Positions 50,562 to 62,265 of a stretch of DNA of 64,000 nt are shown in pieces. The first letter of the stretch is position 1. Each line of letters begins with the position of its first letter. Source of the DNA: Alphaproteobacteria bacterium (lineage in GTDB: Bacteria; Pseudomonadota; Alphaproteobacteria; Micavibrionales; Micavibrionaceae); the NCBI GenBank assembly GCA_017999645.1, contig JAGNLJ010000005.1, forward strand, positions 62,001 through 126,000. The letters run 5' to 3'. The translations under genes were made by a program, and so were the position numbers. The notes beneath the pieces are model-generated. The model saw only the letters and a list, made by a program, of their open reading frames with translations, was not told the origin of the DNA and did no database searches.

Positions 50562-50618
50562 ATAAATTTCAGCCCAGCTGGTGTCTGTTTGTACATAACT
50601 CAAACAACCAGGTGGCAA

Positions 50619-51092
50619 ATGCCCTTCGATAAAAGGTGTGAAGCACAGCAAATCCTCGAAGATTTAAAAGCCGTAGCGCCCGAATCAAAGCACGGGAGGT
50701 CGGAAAATGCCAAATTGCTCCTGGTGGAAGATGATCCGTCAAACATCCTGATTGAATCAATTTTTCTCGACCAATGTGGCTATTTCTATGATGTAGCGAC
50801 CAATGGCCGCGAGGTTATCAATAAAGTCTCCACCACGTCTTACGCGTTGATCTTAATGAATATTAACCTGCCCGACATGAATGGTCTGGAGGTGACCCGC
50901 AAATTGCGTGAGATGGAAAAACAGGGCCTGATATCCCATGTGCCGATCATAGCCATAACGGCGCATGTCGCAAAAGGTTACCGTGAAATATGCCTGCAGG
51001 CAGGCATGAACGGATACATCTCCAAGCCGTTTACCCAAAGCCAGCTTTGCAAAAAGATCGAGCAAAGTGTAGTCCGCCAGCAGTGCAACTAA
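50619..51092 (+). CDS. Receiver-domain protein with Asn in place of the phospho-acceptor Asp
   Basis: A 157-residue stand-alone CheY-like receiver. It has the acidic triad start LLLVEDDP (37-39), the switch region IAITAH (Thr114) and the Lys in SKPF (Lys136). The acceptor segment normally LMDIQMP is LMNINLP, so position 81 is Asn. The first 30 residues are an unrelated leader. Such a pseudo-receiver cannot be phosphorylated in the usual way. ATG 50619 has an AGGTGG site. It lies 81 bases upstream of luxR and may be a partner or modulator. Confidence 0.82.
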   Translation: MPFDKRCEAQQILEDLKAVAPESKHGRSENAKLLLVEDDPSNILIESIFLDQCGYFYDVATNGREVINKVSTTSYALILMNINLPDMNGLEVTRKLREMEKQGLISHVPIIAITAHVAKGYREICLQAGMNGYISKPFTQSQLCKKIEQSVVRQQCN

Positions 51093-51173
51093 AAGTGTAG
51101 TGTGTTTTTTATTCTAATTTTTTTGCAACCCGCCTATATATAGCTCAGCAAAACATATAATAGAAAACGCATT

Positions 51174-51908
51174 ATGAAAACCTTACAGGATCAGGTCGCA
51201 CTGCTCAATGAGGCGCGATCCACTGACGAGCTCTTCATAAACCTGGCAAAAATCATGCTCTTCAACGGGTATGACAAAGTGTCATATGGCTGCGCGACCG
51301 ACTGCCCTTCTCTCGGCCTCAAGAAAAAACACGGTCACGCCAGTAATTTCTCCGAAAGTTGGCTCAAACACTACGCCGAATTTGATCTTTCAGGAATAGA
51401 TCCAGTCCACATTCACCTCGTTGAAAAAAGAACGCCCGCCTTCTGGTCGGCCTGCGAGGAAAATGCGTCTTTGGCGTCAAAGCAACTCATGCGCAACGCC
51501 GCCGATGCCGGTTTGAACGGCGGCATCATCATTCCACTTTGCGATGTCGGCGGCGAACTGTCGATGGTCAGCGTTTCAAACACTGAAATCAGCGCGCGGG
51601 AGGAAACCTATGAAACGCTCGCGGCAGTCAACCTTATAAGCACCTATTTTTATGAGAACTATAAATCCCTCATTAAAAAACCCGATCCCGTGTATCTCTC
51701 GCCCCGCGAATATGAAGTTATAAACTGGGCCGCCGAAGGCAAAACCGATTCCGAAATCGCCACCATCACGAGCATAAGCACCGCGACCGTACGCTATCAC
51801 TGGAAAAATATTTTTACAAAATTGAATGTGTTCAGCCGCGTCTCTGCGGTTTCAAAAGCAGTCCAGCTGCAGCTTGTGAAACCCCAATATTTCATGCGGA
51901 AAAAGTAA
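51174..51908 (+). CDS. luxR: LuxR-family autoinducer-responsive regulator
   Basis: A 244-residue quorum-sensing regulator. The autoinducer-binding domain (about 15-160) keeps the key aromatic/acid pattern: SWLKHYAEFDLSGIDPVHIH (Trp, Tyr, Asp) and TPAFW. The HTH domain (about 172-235) has LSPREYEVINWAAEGKTDSE and STATVRYHWKNIFTKLNVFS. It is followed directly by luxI (TAATG overlap), as in many alphaproteobacterial pairs. It should bind an acyl-homoserine lactone and control target genes, perhaps luxI itself. Confidence 0.9.
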   Translation: MKTLQDQVALLNEARSTDELFINLAKIMLFNGYDKVSYGCATDCPSLGLKKKHGHASNFSESWLKHYAEFDLSGIDPVHIHLVEKRTPAFWSACEENASLASKQLMRNAADAGLNGGIIIPLCDVGGELSMVSVSNTEISAREETYETLAAVNLISTYFYENYKSLIKKPDPVYLSPREYEVINWAAEGKTDSEIATITSISTATVRYHWKNIFTKLNVFSRVSAVSKAVQLQLVKPQYFMRKK

Positions 51909-52735
51909 TGGCGAATATTCTCAAAACGAATGAACGCCAGAAGGTTAAAGTATTCTGCTACCCGGCTGGCCATGACGAAGAATTTCCCTTAACTGAAAAA
52001 GAAGAACAGAAAAATCGCTATAAAGTCTTGCGCGGCCTCGGATGGGACGCCGACTATGATGACAAAAAAAGAATCGAGACGGATCAATATGATGTTGCAC
52101 CGACTGTTAAGTTCATCTGTGTGTCACCGTATATGGAAAAATTTCTCGGCAGCGTAAGGCTTATGCCTATGAAATATCTTTCCATGATCAGAGACGCATT
52201 CAGTGACGCTGCCAAACCATCCAGGAATCTTGTCGATCCCGGTTTTCAACTTCCCGAAGACGCTACAGCCGCTGAAATATCGCGCCTCGTCATACGAAAA
52301 GAGTTTTTGAAACCTAAACCTACATCTCACCGCCCGGACAAATTTAGAGAGGCGCGAGATGAAGTCATAGCACGCCTTTTCGTGGCCATGATGGCTTACT
52401 GTCGTTACCCGGAAGTCAGGCCTCGCACTCCTGAATTAAATCCTGAGGATGAAGTCGTCATCGAAAGAATTTTTGGAATTTCCTACGTCGAGGCGTGGGA
52501 ACCGGTCTTTGCGAAACGCGGGCTGACACCGAATTTTATTGGTCCTGCTAAATGGGTGCCGACCGTAGAAAAACAAGACCCGTTCTCTGATGAAGAAGCC
52601 CCTGTGGAACATCTACAAGCCGGCTGGATGGAGGCAAACTGGGACGTGGCAGAAGAGCTATGCACGCACTATGGCCTCACGGCACCATATTTTTACACCA
52701 AACGGGATGAGATACAGCCCTTTGTGGATATCTAA
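51908..52735 (+). CDS. luxI: LuxI-type acyl-homoserine-lactone synthase, extended form
   Basis: A 275-residue autoinducer synthase. Conserved parts are NRYKVLRGLGW (Arg37, Trp46), ETDQYD, CVSPYMEKFLGSVRLMPM and EISRLVIRKEF (Arg126). LuxI proteins are usually 190-220 residues; the extra length lies in an N-terminal extension and a C-terminal tail of about 75 residues, so a related but distinct substrate group is possible. Coupled to luxR. It uses SAM and an acyl donor; the acyl chain is unknown. Confidence 0.87.
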   Translation: MANILKTNERQKVKVFCYPAGHDEEFPLTEKEEQKNRYKVLRGLGWDADYDDKKRIETDQYDVAPTVKFICVSPYMEKFLGSVRLMPMKYLSMIRDAFSDAAKPSRNLVDPGFQLPEDATAAEISRLVIRKEFLKPKPTSHRPDKFREARDEVIARLFVAMMAYCRYPEVRPRTPELNPEDEVVIERIFGISYVEAWEPVFAKRGLTPNFIGPAKWVPTVEKQDPFSDEEAPVEHLQAGWMEANWDVAEELCTHYGLTAPYFYTKRDEIQPFVDI

Positions 52736-52746
52736 CGGGAATGCGG

Positions 52747-52836
52747 TGGCGGACAGGGAGGGATTCGAACCCTCGATAGGCTTGCGCCTATGCCAGTTTT
52801 CGAGACTGGTACCTTCAACCACTCGGTCACCTGTCC
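52747..52836 (-). tRNA. tRNA-Ser (anticodon CGA)
   Basis: A 90-base class II tRNA. The acceptor stem GGACAGG pairs with CCTGTCC, followed by discriminator G and an encoded CCA. The anticodon stem CCAGT/ACTGG holds the loop CTCGAAA, anticodon CGA, for UCG codons. The long variable arm (CATAGGCGCAAGCCTAT) and the T-arm (GAGGGTTCGAATCCCTC) are as in tRNA-Ser. Confidence 0.95.
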
Positions 52837-52944: not shown

Positions 52945-53478
52945 TTAATGCACTTGATGCACATGCACGCGACGGCCGCCATGGCGGCGCATGATATCGG
53001 TGGCGATCGTCTGCTCTTCCTCGCCCGGCGTGCGCACCCATAAAGTCATGCGCCCCGCTTTGATCTGCTTGTGCAGCAATCCGTTGTAATAATGCCCTAA
53101 CAGCCACGCCACCAGCGCGCCCAGCGATGCGCCGAACAATCCGCCGAAAACGCCCGTCATCAACATGCTATCCATCGGCGCGCCGACGCCTGCGGTCATC
53201 ATCCCCGTCACCACCCCGGCATAAAATCCGCCGCCGATAATCACACCCACACCAATCGCCTTTTCCTCAGGCCGTATTAAAATCGTGCGCGGCGCCTCCG
53301 GGTCGTCGGCCATAGCCTTGCCGTCCATGATGATCCCTTCATTGCGAGCCGCGCGTTCGTCGAGAATACTGATATCCTGGCGCGGAAAGGCCGTAACCTC
53401 CAGCTCCGCAATCGCCTCGTTGAGACTGTGCATATTGTCGAAAACGCCAACAGTTTCATTAATGTTTTCGTGTTCCAT
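52945..53478 (-). CDS. Membrane protein with glycine-rich hydrophobic core, stress-protein-like
   Basis: A 177-residue protein. The N-terminal domain VGVFDNMHSLNEAIAELEVTAF and DISILDE resembles the general-stress 17M-like/YflT fold. A Gly/Ala-rich membrane segment with two helices follows (about residues 75-95 and 105-128, GVGVIIGGGFYAGVV, GVFGGLFGASLGALVAWLLG), and then a charged C-terminus with VRTPGEEEQ and a His-rich end. An AAGGAG site precedes the ATG. The role is not known; stress response is likely from the N-terminal domain. Confidence 0.72.
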   Translation of the reverse strand: MEHENINETVGVFDNMHSLNEAIAELEVTAFPRQDISILDERAARNEGIIMDGKAMADDPEAPRTILIRPEEKAIGVGVIIGGGFYAGVVTGMMTAGVGAPMDSMLMTGVFGGLFGASLGALVAWLLGHYYNGLLHKQIKAGRMTLWVRTPGEEEQTIATDIMRRHGGRRVHVHQVH

Positions 53479-53526: not shown

Positions 53527-54189
53527 TCAGGCCGTTTTTTTGCGCTTCTTCTTATATTGCGTGAGCTTATCGGCCTTCATCTCGACCATATCGCGCAATC
53601 TTAACTTTTTCGCCTGTGCCGTCGTCAAAAGGGAATAATGCCGCCCCTCATCCAGCGCCCCTGCGATGTCCCAGCAATCTTCCTTGCTGTTCACCCACTC
53701 ATTATTTTTGTAACGCCGCAGATCGAACGGCACGGAATAATTCCGCAACGTTTTTTTCCGGCCCTTCGTATATTCATGAAAGTAAGACAACGCCAGTTCG
53801 CGCGGCGTTTTATAAATCGGATCGCGCCAGCGCAGCCACACATGATTGCTTTTTGAAATCGCGCCGAAGTAGCCCCGTTCCCGGAAAATACAGATCACAT
53901 GATCGTGATCGCCCTTCGCCTGCATATCCATTAACAAAGGCGGATACCCCATCATCCACAGCGCCGCCGCCGCGACAAACGCCGCCTCGATGCAATGCGC
54001 CTCGCCGCGCTTTAAAACTTCCGCCGCCGACCGGCACGTATCGCCGCCGGGCTCGTGGTTCATCTTGAGGGAAGAAACAAAATCCTGAACATCCGCCGGA
54101 CTCTCCAGCCGCGCCAGCGTCCGCGCTGCAGAAGCCGGGAGCCCCATCTTCCGGCCCATTTCAATGCGCTGTTTCAGGCTCCGTTTCAT
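53527..54189 (-). CDS. Transglutaminase-like cysteine protein
   Basis: A 220-residue soluble protein with a papain/transglutaminase-type layout: Cys66 in GEAHCIEAAFVAAAALWMMG, His97 in GDHDHVICIFRE, and Asp123 in WRDPIY. The last 30 residues are Lys-rich (KADKLTQYKKKRKKTA). The remaining parts, such as HEYTKGRKKTLRNYSVPFDL, are not recognised. It could be a peptidase or amide transfer enzyme. No ribosome binding site is evident. Confidence 0.65.
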   Translation of the reverse strand: MKRSLKQRIEMGRKMGLPASAARTLARLESPADVQDFVSSLKMNHEPGGDTCRSAAEVLKRGEAHCIEAAFVAAAALWMMGYPPLLMDMQAKGDHDHVICIFRERGYFGAISKSNHVWLRWRDPIYKTPRELALSYFHEYTKGRKKTLRNYSVPFDLRRYKNNEWVNSKEDCWDIAGALDEGRHYSLLTTAQAKKLRLRDMVEMKADKLTQYKKKRKKTA

Positions 54190-55324: not shown

Positions 55325-56344
55325 TTAATTCTCGATTTTTTTGAACAAATCGCTCGCGATATAACGCTCGGCGAACGAAGGCACCATAACAATAATGGTC
55401 TTGCCCTTGCTATCCGGCATCTGCGCAACTTCCACCGCCGCCGCAAAATTCGCGCCGCCGGAAATGCCGCAAGGAAATCCCTCAAGGCGGGAAATTTCCT
55501 GCGCCGTCTCCAGCGCATGGTCGCTCGGCACCTGGATGATGCTGTCAATCGCCGACTTGCTGAGCAGCGGCGGCTTGAAACCGACGCCGATACCCTGAAT
55601 TTTGTGCTGCGCCGGATTGCCGCCCGAGAGAACCGGGCTTTCCGCCGGCTCGACCGCAAAAACCTTGAAACCTTTTTTCTTTTCTTTAAGAACCTGCGCA
55701 AGGCCCGTCACCGTCGCGCCCGTGCCGACGCCGCAGATTAAAATATCCGCCTTGCCGCCCGTATCGGCCCAGATTTCTTCCGCCGTGCCCTCGGCATGCG
55801 CCATCGGCCCTGCCTCGTTATTGAATTGGTCCGGCGTCCACGCATCATGCGTCTGTTTCATCAGGCCCGCCGCAACTTCGGTTGCGCCCTTCATGCCGCG
55901 CTCCGCCGCAGTCAGCACCAACTCCGCGCCGTAAAAAAGCAACAGTTTCCGCCGCTCCAGCGGCGCGCTTTCCGGTAGCACGATAACCAGCTTGTATCCC
56001 TTCATCGCCGCGACGAATGCCAGCGAAATCGCCATGTTGCCGGATGATGCCTCGATGATCGTCGTTTTGCCCGGCGTGATCGCCTTCGCGTTTTCCGCCG
56101 ACTCCACCATCGCCAGCGCCGTACGGTCCTTGATGGAACCTAGCGGATTGAAAAATTCCAGCTTCGCAAGGATGTCGGCCTGCAAACCATACTTCGCCAT
56201 AAATTTCGACGCCCGCACCAGCGGCGTGCCGCCGATCGTCTCGAACACATCGTTATAGATCTTGCCGCGCGGCGTAACCGCCCGGTTCGAGGATATGGCG
56301 GTGTTGGTTTTCTGGGTGCCGCTGACGGTTGCTTTGACGACCAT
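55325..56344 (-). CDS. cysK: Cysteine synthase (O-acetylserine sulfhydrylase) family
   Basis: A 339-residue PLP enzyme. The Lys is in NPLGSIKDR and the substrate loop is EASSGNMAISLAF (usually TSGNTG), with the Gly-rich GVGTGATVTGL loop and SGGANFAAAVE near the end. The N-terminal 25 residues are an extra Thr/Ser/Asn-rich leader. A GGGAGA site precedes ATG 56344. The change from TSGNTG to SSGNMA may alter substrate choice. This is the second of the three paralogues in the window. Confidence 0.88.
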   Translation of the reverse strand: MVVKATVSGTQKTNTAISSNRAVTPRGKIYNDVFETIGGTPLVRASKFMAKYGLQADILAKLEFFNPLGSIKDRTALAMVESAENAKAITPGKTTIIEASSGNMAISLAFVAAMKGYKLVIVLPESAPLERRKLLLFYGAELVLTAAERGMKGATEVAAGLMKQTHDAWTPDQFNNEAGPMAHAEGTAEEIWADTGGKADILICGVGTGATVTGLAQVLKEKKKGFKVFAVEPAESPVLSGGNPAQHKIQGIGVGFKPPLLSKSAIDSIIQVPSDHALETAQEISRLEGFPCGISGGANFAAAVEVAQMPDSKGKTIIVMVPSFAERYIASDLFKKIEN

Positions 56345-56497
56345 AGATGTCTCCCGGGGGGTGAAAAACGCGATTCTGGATATTCAGAATAAGGCTTTTG
56401 AGGGCCTTTGGGAACCTGCCGCTTAAAAAGCTTGCACCGACCCCTTTTTTCTATTAGCTATTATGGCAATATAATATTAGAAAATTAGAGAAAACTA

Positions 56498-56881
56498 GTG
56501 CTGCTTAAAATTATATATCAAAACACTGTGAATTCAGACGCTCAATCTTACCGGGAAGGTATCGATAAAAGAGTCGACCGGATTTTTGGCGATGCCGAAG
56601 AGAACTGTTTAATCAAATTTGAGGGCAAAAAAGACGAACTGCGTGCCAGCCTGACAATCGACCAGATTTGCGAACTCAGGGAATTCCTGGGAGAGAAATT
56701 CAATAAATTGAACCGACAATTGATAAAGGAAACTCCAAAATTTTCCCAGACACGCACAGCAGTCAAAATGACTGCCAATTTAGGAAACATGGAATTAACA
56801 GAAACGGCGTTCAGCGTGGAAATCGCCACGACTGAAAATGAATATGCAGAACCGCTGCAAATCCCGTATCAGAATTCATAG
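56498..56881 (+). CDS. Unknown protein, cluster member 1 of 5
   Basis: A 127-residue protein that I do not recognise, with a GTG start (56498). Predicted layout: strand MLLKIIYQN, helix with YREGIDKRVDRIF, strand pair CLIKFEGKKDELRASLTI, helix CELREFLGEKFNKLNRQLI, and a final strand pair RTAVKMTANLG and TAFSVEIAT. Its opening is almost the same as that of the next gene (MLLKI). Soluble, no signal peptide. The 150 bases upstream are AT-rich and hold its likely promoter. Confidence 0.6.
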   Translation: MLLKIIYQNTVNSDAQSYREGIDKRVDRIFGDAEENCLIKFEGKKDELRASLTIDQICELREFLGEKFNKLNRQLIKETPKFSQTRTAVKMTANLGNMELTETAFSVEIATTENEYAEPLQIPYQNS

Positions 56882-56900
56882 AGAGTAACAGAGAGTAACT

Positions 56901-57344
56901 ATGCTGCTTAAAATTTTATTCATAAACGCCGCCGAACCCGGCTCGCTGCCCCCCGAAATTGAATCGGGCCTTGATGACATCATCACCACGTACCTGAAGA
57001 ATGTTGCAAAAGAACATCGCGACGCGCGCGTCATCGTCATCGATGAAAAACGGCACGAGTTGACAATCGACGTTCCCATGCAGGAAGGCTCGCGCCGGAT
57101 TAATAATCTGCAACACATGATCCATGAAATGAACAGAAGATATATAGATAGCGCAGTACCATCATCACAAATCAGGCTTACAGCCAAGATGAAGGTTGAT
57201 GAGCCCACGGAGATATTCGCCGACAGCGCTACATGCACAATCCAGCTTTCCAGCACACCCACCAGTAAAGATGACATGCTGTGGATGGGATTACTTCAAC
57301 CGGAAAGCGTCGAACAAGATAATTTCGAAATAGCCCGCTGGTAA
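56901..57344 (+). CDS. Unknown protein, cluster member 2 of 5
   Basis: A 147-residue protein starting MLLKILFINA, with a helix containing EIESGLDDIITTYLKN, a strand-rich section ARVIVIDEKRHELTIDVPM, a helix RINNLQHMIHEMNRRYI, and the ending strands IRLTAKMKVDEPTEIF and TCTIQLSST. The order of elements is the same as in member 1, so the two look like diverged duplicates. It starts 19 bases after the stop of member 1. Function unknown. Confidence 0.62.
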   Translation: MLLKILFINAAEPGSLPPEIESGLDDIITTYLKNVAKEHRDARVIVIDEKRHELTIDVPMQEGSRRINNLQHMIHEMNRRYIDSAVPSSQIRLTAKMKVDEPTEIFADSATCTIQLSSTPTSKDDMLWMGLLQPESVEQDNFEIARW

Positions 57345-57362
57345 AGCCCACAGGAAACAATC

Positions 57363-57767
57363 ATGTTCGTCACATTGGCTTTTAGAAACATCGTCGCCGT
57401 CCCTGAAACATTCGATCCGCTAAATCCGCCGGAAACAAGGGAGCATGTCCAGGGTGCAATAGAAAGACTCGTCGAGTCTTTCGAGGAAAAAGGCTTCCTG
57501 CCTTATCGCAACGATCACGAAGGCATCCAGTACGGCTTCATGGCCGAAGACTGGGCAAAAGCCAACAAACTTGCCGAAGATTTCAGGCGTCAATTCAATC
57601 GCCACAATCAGACATGGATGAAATCACCTTCGAATTCTATTCTTGTCCCGGCAACTATTTTTAAAATCTACCGCTTCGAACACCAGATCGCCTGCGTGGC
57701 AAATATGTATGCGGTGCTGGCGGTAGAACCCAGAAGGGTTGCAGCCGCTCTTGAATGCAGTAACTGA
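57363..57767 (+). CDS. Unknown protein, cluster member 3 of 5
   Basis: A 134-residue protein with an AGGAAA site before ATG 57363. It opens with strand MFVTLAFRNIVAV, then a helix VQGAIERLVESFEEKG, a short loop YRNDHEGIQYGF, helix AEDWAKANKLAEDFRRQFNRH and final strands ATIFKIYRF and NMYAVLAVE. The same order of elements as in members 1 and 2 is seen, although the residues differ more. Function unknown. Confidence 0.6.
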   Translation: MFVTLAFRNIVAVPETFDPLNPPETREHVQGAIERLVESFEEKGFLPYRNDHEGIQYGFMAEDWAKANKLAEDFRRQFNRHNQTWMKSPSNSILVPATIFKIYRFEHQIACVANMYAVLAVEPRRVAAALECSN

Positions 57768-57779
57768 TCAGGGGCCGCA

Positions 57780-58133
57780 ATGACAATAATAAAAATTTTC
57801 TTCAAAGACTCCACCGAGTTCCACGACCTGGTTTCACCGGAAGATCGAGCACGCATCACCGAAACAGTCGACACTTACATCAAATTTTTCAACGGCCTCT
57901 TCGGCACCCTGCACAGCAACAATAATAATGACGACGATGGAATTAACATTGCCGAGGGCCCCGTTGATGGCTGCATCAGGAGCTTCGACGAAATGGCGCG
58001 TAATTTCTCGCACGTCGGCACCCAGTTGAGTCAGGAAATTTTTTTGTCGGCCAGCATGGACGTTAATCGTCAAAAAGAACCGGTTATTCTCACGATAAAT
58101 ATTTCCGGAACGCCGAATACGTCGCTTAACTGA
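57780..58133 (+). CDS. Unknown protein, cluster member 4 of 5
   Basis: A 117-residue protein with an AGGGG site before ATG 57780. It begins MTIIKIFFKDSTEF, followed by a helix (RARITETVDTYIKFFNGLF), an Asn/Asp-rich loop (HSNNNNDDDG), another helix with SFDEMARNFSHVGTQL, and two strands EIFLSASMDVN and PVILTINIS. It follows the same layout as the others. Function unknown. Confidence 0.6.
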   Translation: MTIIKIFFKDSTEFHDLVSPEDRARITETVDTYIKFFNGLFGTLHSNNNNDDDGINIAEGPVDGCIRSFDEMARNFSHVGTQLSQEIFLSASMDVNRQKEPVILTINISGTPNTSLN

Positions 58134-58202
58134 CAATATTTGCAGGCTTTTTATTATTGCTTTAATAGTTAAGGTAACAAAAAAATTAAGGGAGATGATT
58201 TC

Positions 58203-58664
58203 ATGCGTAAGAGTTTTTTAGAGCGCGGGCTTTCTATTTGGAAACAATTCAAATTCAGCGGACAAAAACCTCCCGAACCGGAAATAGATCTCGACGAACT
58301 CGACCGGGCTTTCGGTCTTCAAAATCTCACTCTTACCTTTAAAAACACCATCACCGCCGGCTCTCTGAAATCTCCCGAAGCAGAAACCACGATCACTCAG
58401 ACCATGAATGGATTCATGGAACGCACAGCAAAAACGCACGCGGTTGAAATTGCCAATGAAGACGGAATACAAAAAATCTCTATCGGCAATCTGACAAGAA
58501 AAAAACTTGACGCTATAGATCATGACCTGGCGATGGCGCTTCACTCCCTGATACCGCGATATGAAGAACTTTGGAAAATGCAGATTGCCCGGCCGGGAAG
58601 CTCTTTTTGCAAATCTGGCGAAAAAGAAATTACCTGGGCTATAGAAGTATCGCCCTATTCGTGA
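58203..58664 (+). CDS. Unknown protein, cluster member 5 of 5
   Basis: A 153-residue protein with a strong AAGGGAGA site. It has an N-terminal addition of about 35 residues (SIWKQFKFSGQKPPEPEIDL), then strand NLTLTFKNTIT, helix with TQTMNGFMERTAK, strand AVEIANEDGIQKISIGN, helix LDAIDHDLAMALHSLIPRYEEL and final strand EITWAIEVS. It looks like an extended version of the same fold and is separated from member 4 by 69 bases. Function unknown. Confidence 0.6.
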   Translation: MRKSFLERGLSIWKQFKFSGQKPPEPEIDLDELDRAFGLQNLTLTFKNTITAGSLKSPEAETTITQTMNGFMERTAKTHAVEIANEDGIQKISIGNLTRKKLDAIDHDLAMALHSLIPRYEELWKMQIARPGSSFCKSGEKEITWAIEVSPYS

Positions 58665-58680
58665 GCGTAGATAATCGAGC

Positions 58681-59019
58681 CTAATCCCCGCTCCCGGGAT
58701 TTTCACTGAAATATTTGTCGAACTTTTCTTTTTCGTCCTTCACCGCGTCGGCTTCAGGCAGCGGATCTTTCGTCTTCGTGATATTCGGCCATTTCTCAGA
58801 ATATTCGCGGTTCATATCCAGCCACTTGTCCGCGCGCGGATCTGAATCCGGGATGATCGCCTCGATCGGGCATTCCGGTTCGCACACGCCGCAATCGATA
58901 CATTCATCCGGGTTGATCACGAGCATATTCTCACCCTCGTAGAAACAATCCACCGGGCAGACCTCGACGCAATCCGTATATTTGCACTTGATGCAGACTT
59001 CGGTGACCACGAAGGTCAT
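58681..59019 (-). CDS. fdxA: FdxA-type 7Fe ferredoxin
   Basis: A 112-residue ferredoxin with one [3Fe-4S] and one [4Fe-4S] cluster: [21 protein letters not shown] and [16 protein letters not shown]. The C-terminal extension (about 50 residues, [15 protein letters not shown]) is as usual for alphaproteobacterial FdxA. A CAGGAGA site precedes the ATG. It probably takes electrons from an NADPH reductase such as the one at 54.2 kb and supplies metabolic enzymes; the partner is not known. Confidence 0.95.
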
Positions 59020-61323: not shown

Positions 61324-62265
61324 ATGAGCCCGGCCTCCACGATATTAGACCTGATCGGCAACACCCCAATGGTCGAATTGACAAAATTCGACACGGGGCC
61401 CTGCCGTTTATTCATGAAACTGGAAGGCTGGAACCCCAGCGGCTCGATCAAGGACCGCACCGCCAAAAGCATGATCGACGCCGCCGAAAAAAGTGGAAAG
61501 CTAAAACCCGGCGGCACAATCATCGAAGCCACCGCCGGAAACACCGGCCTCGGCCTCTCCCTCGTCGCCGCCGTCAGGGGGTATAAGGTCATCCTCGTCG
61601 TGCCCGATAAATTCTCGGAAATGAAAATCACGCACTGCGAAGGCCTCGGCGCAAAAGTCATCCGCACCCGCGCCGATGTGTCCGCTGGCCACCCCGAATA
61701 TTACGTCGACATGGCAAAACGCATCGCCGCCGAAACCGGCGCGTTCCACACCAACCAGTTCGACAACCCGGCGAACGTCCTCGTCCACGAAACCACCACC
61801 GGCCCCGAAATCTGGGAACAGATGGACAAAAAAATCGACGCAATCGTCTGCGGCGTCGGCTCGGGCGGCACGCTGTCAGGCCTCGGAAAATTTTTCGCGA
61901 AAGTTTCGCCGGAAACCGAGCTCATCCTCTCCGATCCCAAGGGCGCACTCCTCGCTGCCAAGGTAAACGGCGAAAAAGCCACACCCCACGCCTTCCGCGT
62001 CGAAGGCATCGGCCAGGAATGCGCTCCCGGCAATCTCGACTTGGGTATCGTCGACAAGGGCTATGTCATCGACGACGACGAAAGCTTTTCTACCGTGCGT
62101 GAGTTATTAAAGCGCGAAGGCATCCTCGCCGGAACGCCGACAGGCACGGTCCTCGCGGGCGCTCTGCGCTATTGCCGCGAACAGACCAAACCCAAACGCG
62201 TCGTCACCTTCATGTCCGACCGCGGCGACAAATATCTTCCGAAAATTTATGGAGAACAGAAATGA
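61324..62265 (+). CDS. Cystathionine beta-synthase-like PLP enzyme
   Basis: A 313-residue member of the CysK/CBS family without a C-terminal CBS domain. The PLP Lys is in NPSGSIKDR, and the substrate loop in EATAGNTGLGLS; the ending has FMSDRGDKYLPKIYG. The AT-A-GNTGLGL form and the overlap (ATGA) with a gamma-lyase gene downstream suggest it condenses homocysteine with serine in reverse transsulfuration, but it could also be a cysteine synthase. Third paralogue in the window. Confidence 0.87.
   Translation: MSPASTILDLIGNTPMVELTKFDTGPCRLFMKLEGWNPSGSIKDRTAKSMIDAAEKSGKLKPGGTIIEATAGNTGLGLSLVAAVRGYKVILVVPDKFSEMKITHCEGLGAKVIRTRADVSAGHPEYYVDMAKRIAAETGAFHTNQFDNPANVLVHETTTGPEIWEQMDKKIDAIVCGVGSGGTLSGLGKFFAKVSPETELILSDPKGALLAAKVNGEKATPHAFRVEGIGQECAPGNLDLGIVDKGYVIDDDESFSTVRELLKREGILAGTPTGTVLAGALRYCREQTKPKRVVTFMSDRGDKYLPKIYGEQK

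Follow-up and report, generated by a model that had tools for sequence, protein, structure and literature searches.

A genus-specific tandem array of small alpha/beta protein paralogues with fast turnover between species of Micavibrio-like bacteria

Within the window analysed here, 64,000 nucleotides of contig JAGNLJ010000005.1 from a Micavibrionaceae genome (Alphaproteobacteria bacterium; hereafter G000), the five plus-strand open reading frames at 56498-58664 form an array of tandem paralogues of one undescribed small alpha/beta protein family. The array is a genus-level insertion between a ferredoxin gene and a cysteine-synthase-like gene, and its set of members changes from species to species, by gain, loss and swapping, far more rapidly than the neighbouring genes do. 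Neither the genus-specific insertion nor the slot swaps between species are visible from one genome, which is what the earlier sequence-only reading of this DNA had. Arrays of small paralogues that turn over fast are often a sign of conflict with toxins, phages or competitors, and the behaviour of this one suggests a possible arms-race role. The lineage, moreover, is close to bacterial predators, and little is known of their conflict systems; the array has no member in any described family, and its swapped slots are ready allele pairs for probing partner specificity.

The array is known from three genomes only: G000; G002, a genome of the same genus (DLHX01000008.1, a contig of Micavibrio sp. 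UBA7657); and G001 (CAADGI010000010.1, an uncultured alphaproteobacterium). Its five gene positions are called slots 1 to 5. In the list that follows, pS is the number of synonymous differences per site between G000 and G002, with its 95% codon-bootstrap range in brackets, and single identities refer to the same pair of genomes.

55325..56344, minus strand: left flank, a cysteine-synthase-like PLP enzyme; next to the ferredoxin gene at the empty site of six other genera; 96% identity; pS 0.24 (0.19-0.30)
56345..56497, strand not applicable: conserved intergenic stretch separating slot 1 from the divergent cysteine-synthase-like gene, with an imperfect palindrome at 56364-56399
56498..56881, plus strand: slot 1, 127 aa, GTG start; the constant member, in all three genomes (76 and 49% identity); pS 0.21 (0.12-0.30)
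56880..56926, plus strand: left edge of the variable part: the leader and opening codons of slot 2, both conserved, 24 bases of which match the slot 1 start (56493-56516)
56901..57344, plus strand: slot 2, 147 aa; probably replaced between species; 26% identity, DNA alike over the first 14-26 bases only; pS 0.74 (0.62-0.87)
57363..57767, plus strand: slot 3, 134 aa; probably the second replaced allele; 51% identity; pS 0.55 (0.42-0.67); low-confidence model with the same element order
57780..58133, plus strand: slot 4, 117 aa; 85% identity to G002, missing from G001; pS 0.23 (0.14-0.34)
58203..58664, plus strand: slot 5, 153 aa; 79% identity to G002, missing from G001; pS 0.31 (0.22-0.41)
58681..59019, minus strand: right flank, a ferredoxin; next to the cysteine-synthase-like gene at the empty site of six other genera; 99% identity; pS 0.23 (0.13-0.35)

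Five paralogous genes in tandem

The sequence-only reading had described five successive plus-strand ORFs of 117-153 residues with short gaps, and this description is correct, the gaps along slots 1-5 being 19, 18, 12 and 69 bases. The ORFs are real genes, since all five occur at the same site in G002, a second genome of the genus, in the same order and reading frames; the GTG start of slot 1 is common to all three genomes. Purine-rich, ribosome-binding-like stretches lie upstream of the slot starts, as the sequence-only reading had stated; that of slot 1 is weak.

Identity between slots is very low (13-23%), and slots 1 and 2 are the only pair whose homology is clear when two slots are compared directly (phmmer E 5e-7 for a nominal 1000 sequences; hhalign E 2.8e-10 over 121 columns). 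These two, whose nearly identical starts had already been noticed, also have a common 5′ leader. HMM-HMM comparison had been proposed as a check on the five. In it, slot 5 (E 2.4e-4) and slot 4 (E 0.0024) align with a joint profile of slots 1 and 2 in register and over almost the full length, 107-108 columns, and slot 3 (E 0.011) aligns only partially, each of these E-values referring to one single comparison. For a hold-out test, every slot was scored in turn with a profile built from the remaining slots, alongside 1000 shuffles of its own sequence, and in each of the five slots none of the 1000 shuffles reached the real score (18-42 bits for slot 1, 27-29 for slot 2, 16-23 for slot 4 and 28-30 for slot 5). 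Slot 3 scored 6.4 and 12.6 bits, against best shuffles of 5.8 and 5.2; slot 3 of G000, which clears its shuffles only narrowly, is the weakest case by sequence. Because the other-slot profile recognises each held-out slot, the slots are paralogues; the earlier suggestion of a tandem family arising by repeated duplication is thus supported by the hold-out profiles, by phmmer and by the hhalign and profile-profile comparisons. The family domain of slot 5 begins at about residue 40, after a basic N-terminal extension. The family alignment has 13 members at low identity, its fine detail is unreliable, and no stretch of it is conserved enough for a contig scan. It includes the third gene of G001, which was considered as a family member and whose kinship is unsupported (94 of 1000 shuffles reach its score).

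That none of the five proteins is recognised was likewise borne out. Matches in Pfam, NCBIfam, PHROGs and PADLOC were at chance level, apart from one stray cyclase match (E 0.0013) for one member in the PADLOC/PHROGs comparison, and a profile search of PDB sequences gave no match. Searches with the family profile covered 142 genomes from the order, 385 from the class and 398 from the phylum (partly overlapping sets, about 900 genomes overall) and yielded no member outside the genus. Weak single-protein matches in other genera (E 0.002-0.4) were dropped, as the profile did not confirm them at E 0.003, and a search of plasmids found no relatives of slot 2. Among the genomes searched, therefore, the family is present only in this genus. 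The proposed look for the same set in related genomes thus gave all five slots in G002, three genes in G001 and none beyond the genus.

Insertion in the genus and turnover between species

The ferredoxin and PLP-enzyme genes adjoin each other directly, in the same orientation and 83-163 bases apart, in six further genera of the family, and hence the array, which lies on the strand opposite to both, is an insertion in the genus. The alternative, that the array was lost in all six other genera, is less economical. The scanned neighbours (the ferredoxin, the PLP enzyme, a pyridine nucleotide reductase, a Y-family polymerase and two proteins without a match) include no integrase or transposase. 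Genus-level insertion and fast turnover would suit a phage defence or counter-defence array in which each copy binds a phage protein, or else the leftovers of a mobile element, and so would the lower G+C of the array (0.42-0.49, against 0.59 in the PLP-enzyme gene and 0.52 in the ferredoxin gene). We consider this unlikely, however, given that nothing in PADLOC or PHROGs matches above chance, the stray cyclase aside, and that no relatives were found of slot 1 in phage records or of slots 1 and 5 in viral contigs.

The site holds five genes in G000, five in G002 and three in G001, the last of which retains slot 1 and a slot-2 gene beside a third gene that looks unrelated. The DNA of G000 and G002 is alike up to base 26 of slot 2, after which no likeness is detectable until 57352, eleven bases before slot 3; between G000 and G001, likeness ends at 56914 (base 14 of slot 2) and returns at 58661, at the end of slot 5. 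All comparisons put the left boundary of the variable part at the slot 2 start.

Synonymous divergence is where the slots part company. The 95% ranges of pS for slots 2 and 3 do not overlap those of slots 1, 4 and 5 or of either flank, and since protein-level selection alone would not raise pS in two slots only, these two have most likely been replaced by diverged copies, not merely selected. The G000 genome has no family members beyond the five slots. Slot 2 of G002 is at least as similar to slot 1 of its own genome as to slot 2 of G000, and therefore genes in the same place need not share descent. Positive selection is unsupported, dN/dS (NG86) being below 1 in every slot: 0.64, 0.26, 0.40, 0.26 and 0.29 for slots 1-5, with slot 2 saturated and slot 1 the highest (0.64-0.9). 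The high value for slot 1 and the restriction to one genus among the genomes searched could also reflect lineage-specific genes under weak constraint, that is, a duplicated orphan domain drifting outside any arms race. This too is improbable, as protein drift does not lift synonymous divergence in two slots only, and slots 4 and 5 are clearly constrained (0.26-0.29). More doubtful again is a hetero-oligomer, in which the five paralogues would be fixed subunits derived by duplication and slots 2 and 3 would each have been replaced once by chance import: the shared fold, short gaps, single direction and identical five-gene order in two species all agree with it, but one would expect fixed subunits to stay together and to diverge at comparable rates, whereas pS differs between slots and G001 keeps only slot 1, a slot-2 gene and its unrelated-looking third gene.

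Predicted fold and possible role of the array

Structure prediction, also among the checks proposed earlier, covers slots 1 and 3. The AlphaFold2 model of slot 1, made from six sequences of slots 1 and 2, has a mean pLDDT of 83 and a pTM of 0.77, with strands at 2-10, 42-44, 47-51, 85-94 and 102-113 and helices at 16-36 and 54-78. That of slot 3, made from its two sequences alone, is of low confidence (mean pLDDT 51, pTM 0.46), but it has the element order of slot 1 plus a short end helix, an agreement reached with no sequences of other slots in its alignment. The idea of a shared layout is thus upheld, by the models of these two slots together with the hold-out profiles and the in-register profile alignments; the order is beta-alpha-beta-beta-alpha-beta-beta. 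The best PDB match of both models is 9ukw, the designed protein A339 (Z 8.7 over 100 residues for slot 1, Z 9.1 over 93 for slot 3), which, being man-made, informs on the arrangement of elements and not on function. The slot 1 model resembles palm-like alpha/beta folds, those of class III nucleotidyl cyclase domains among them, at Z 6-7 across some 90-100 residues, a level that by the search tool's own note denotes a common arrangement and that ribosomal protein chains likewise reach. A class III cyclase identity was rejected: the array proteins are smaller than those domains, the conserved metal-binding aspartates are missing, and none of the columns of the 13-member alignment is invariant, acidic ones included. 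Foldseek gave no match at E <= 0.001 among solved and viral structures.

Because no residue is invariant across the family, which speaks against a common active site, we infer binding proteins rather than enzymes. By analogy with strings of immunity genes, the array most likely encodes small binding proteins of the cytosol that keep pace with partners as these change. Slot 1 has remained in place, and behind it, from a recurrent edge at the slot 2 start, members have been gained, lost or exchanged; whole alleles could be replaced through recombination with diverged relatives of the array. Each copy would then recognise one changing partner, and the array would amount to a stock of specificities, in the way that immunity-gene strings answer the variants of a toxin family. 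That these are binding proteins engaged in an arms race, in the broad sense, is the explanation we put forward, tentatively. The fuller statement is more tentative: that this is a diversifying array of genus-specific small alpha/beta binding proteins, one constant and the others replaceable, shaped by an arms race (toxin immunity, phage or prey recognition) in Micavibrio-like bacteria. Toxin immunity in particular is less likely than the broad arms-race reading.

The closest described parallel in behaviour is given by the type VII secretion immunity genes esaG of Staphylococcus and tipC of Streptococcus, which occur as tandem, non-identical strings of variable copy number and recombine through conserved blocks (PMC9484751). 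Our array, too, consists of tandem non-identical small paralogues (in all five slots by the hold-out profiles), differs in copy number between genomes (5, 5 and 3), and has a conserved block at the 5′ end and members that appear altered by recombination. Unlike those strings, its common DNA block is short (24-38 bases) and confined to slots 1 and 2, its paralogues are far more diverged, it has no adjacent toxin or secretion system, and it resides in an alphaproteobacterial host with no sequence match to described families; the comparison is one of likeness in behaviour, not of membership. Weighing against our explanation, no toxin gene was found among the scanned neighbours, though a distant toxin is possible, and a type VI sheath gene is absent from all three genomes. 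Of the three, only G002 encodes a large two-partner-secretion protein, whose domain lies in a 3312-aa open frame (L042, G002:C15:324446-325099).

Quorum-sensing genes and other neighbours

A link of the array to quorum sensing had been raised, and this has been weakened and is unsupported. The luxR gene (with autoinducer-binding and GerE domains) and luxI lie at least 3.7 kb upstream of the array, and the pair is absent at this site in G001, where the array persists, so that the conserved luxR/luxI linkage of a quorum-regulated operon is not seen among the three genomes. A second LuxI-like gene is found elsewhere in all three genomes, and Micavibrio aeruginosavorus has been reported to have LuxI and LuxR genes (PMC3189940). 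A response regulator, luxR and luxI make up a block at 50589-52735 that G000 and G002 share and that is missing from this site in G001; it adjoins a tRNA-Ser gene (52747-52836, minus strand) and may be an island of its own. Its LuxI homologue (51908-52735) is long (275 aa) and has no more than a weak Pfam match (E 5e-6), and hence its signal may be unusual.

The RNA element search had a tRNA gene as its single outcome, and promoter- and terminator-like matches did not stand out clearly from those in shuffled sequence. The imperfect palindrome at 56364-56399, between the divergent PLP-enzyme gene and slot 1, is conserved in all three genomes and is perhaps an operator. Two minus-strand proteins, at 52945-53478 and 53527-54189, are conserved in the genus and have no Pfam match at E 0.001. 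Two cysteine-synthase-like genes lie within 6 kb of each other, at 55325-56344 and 61324-62265; the second of these and the gene after it, which resembles a PLP enzyme of sulphur amino-acid metabolism, are identified by reading only.
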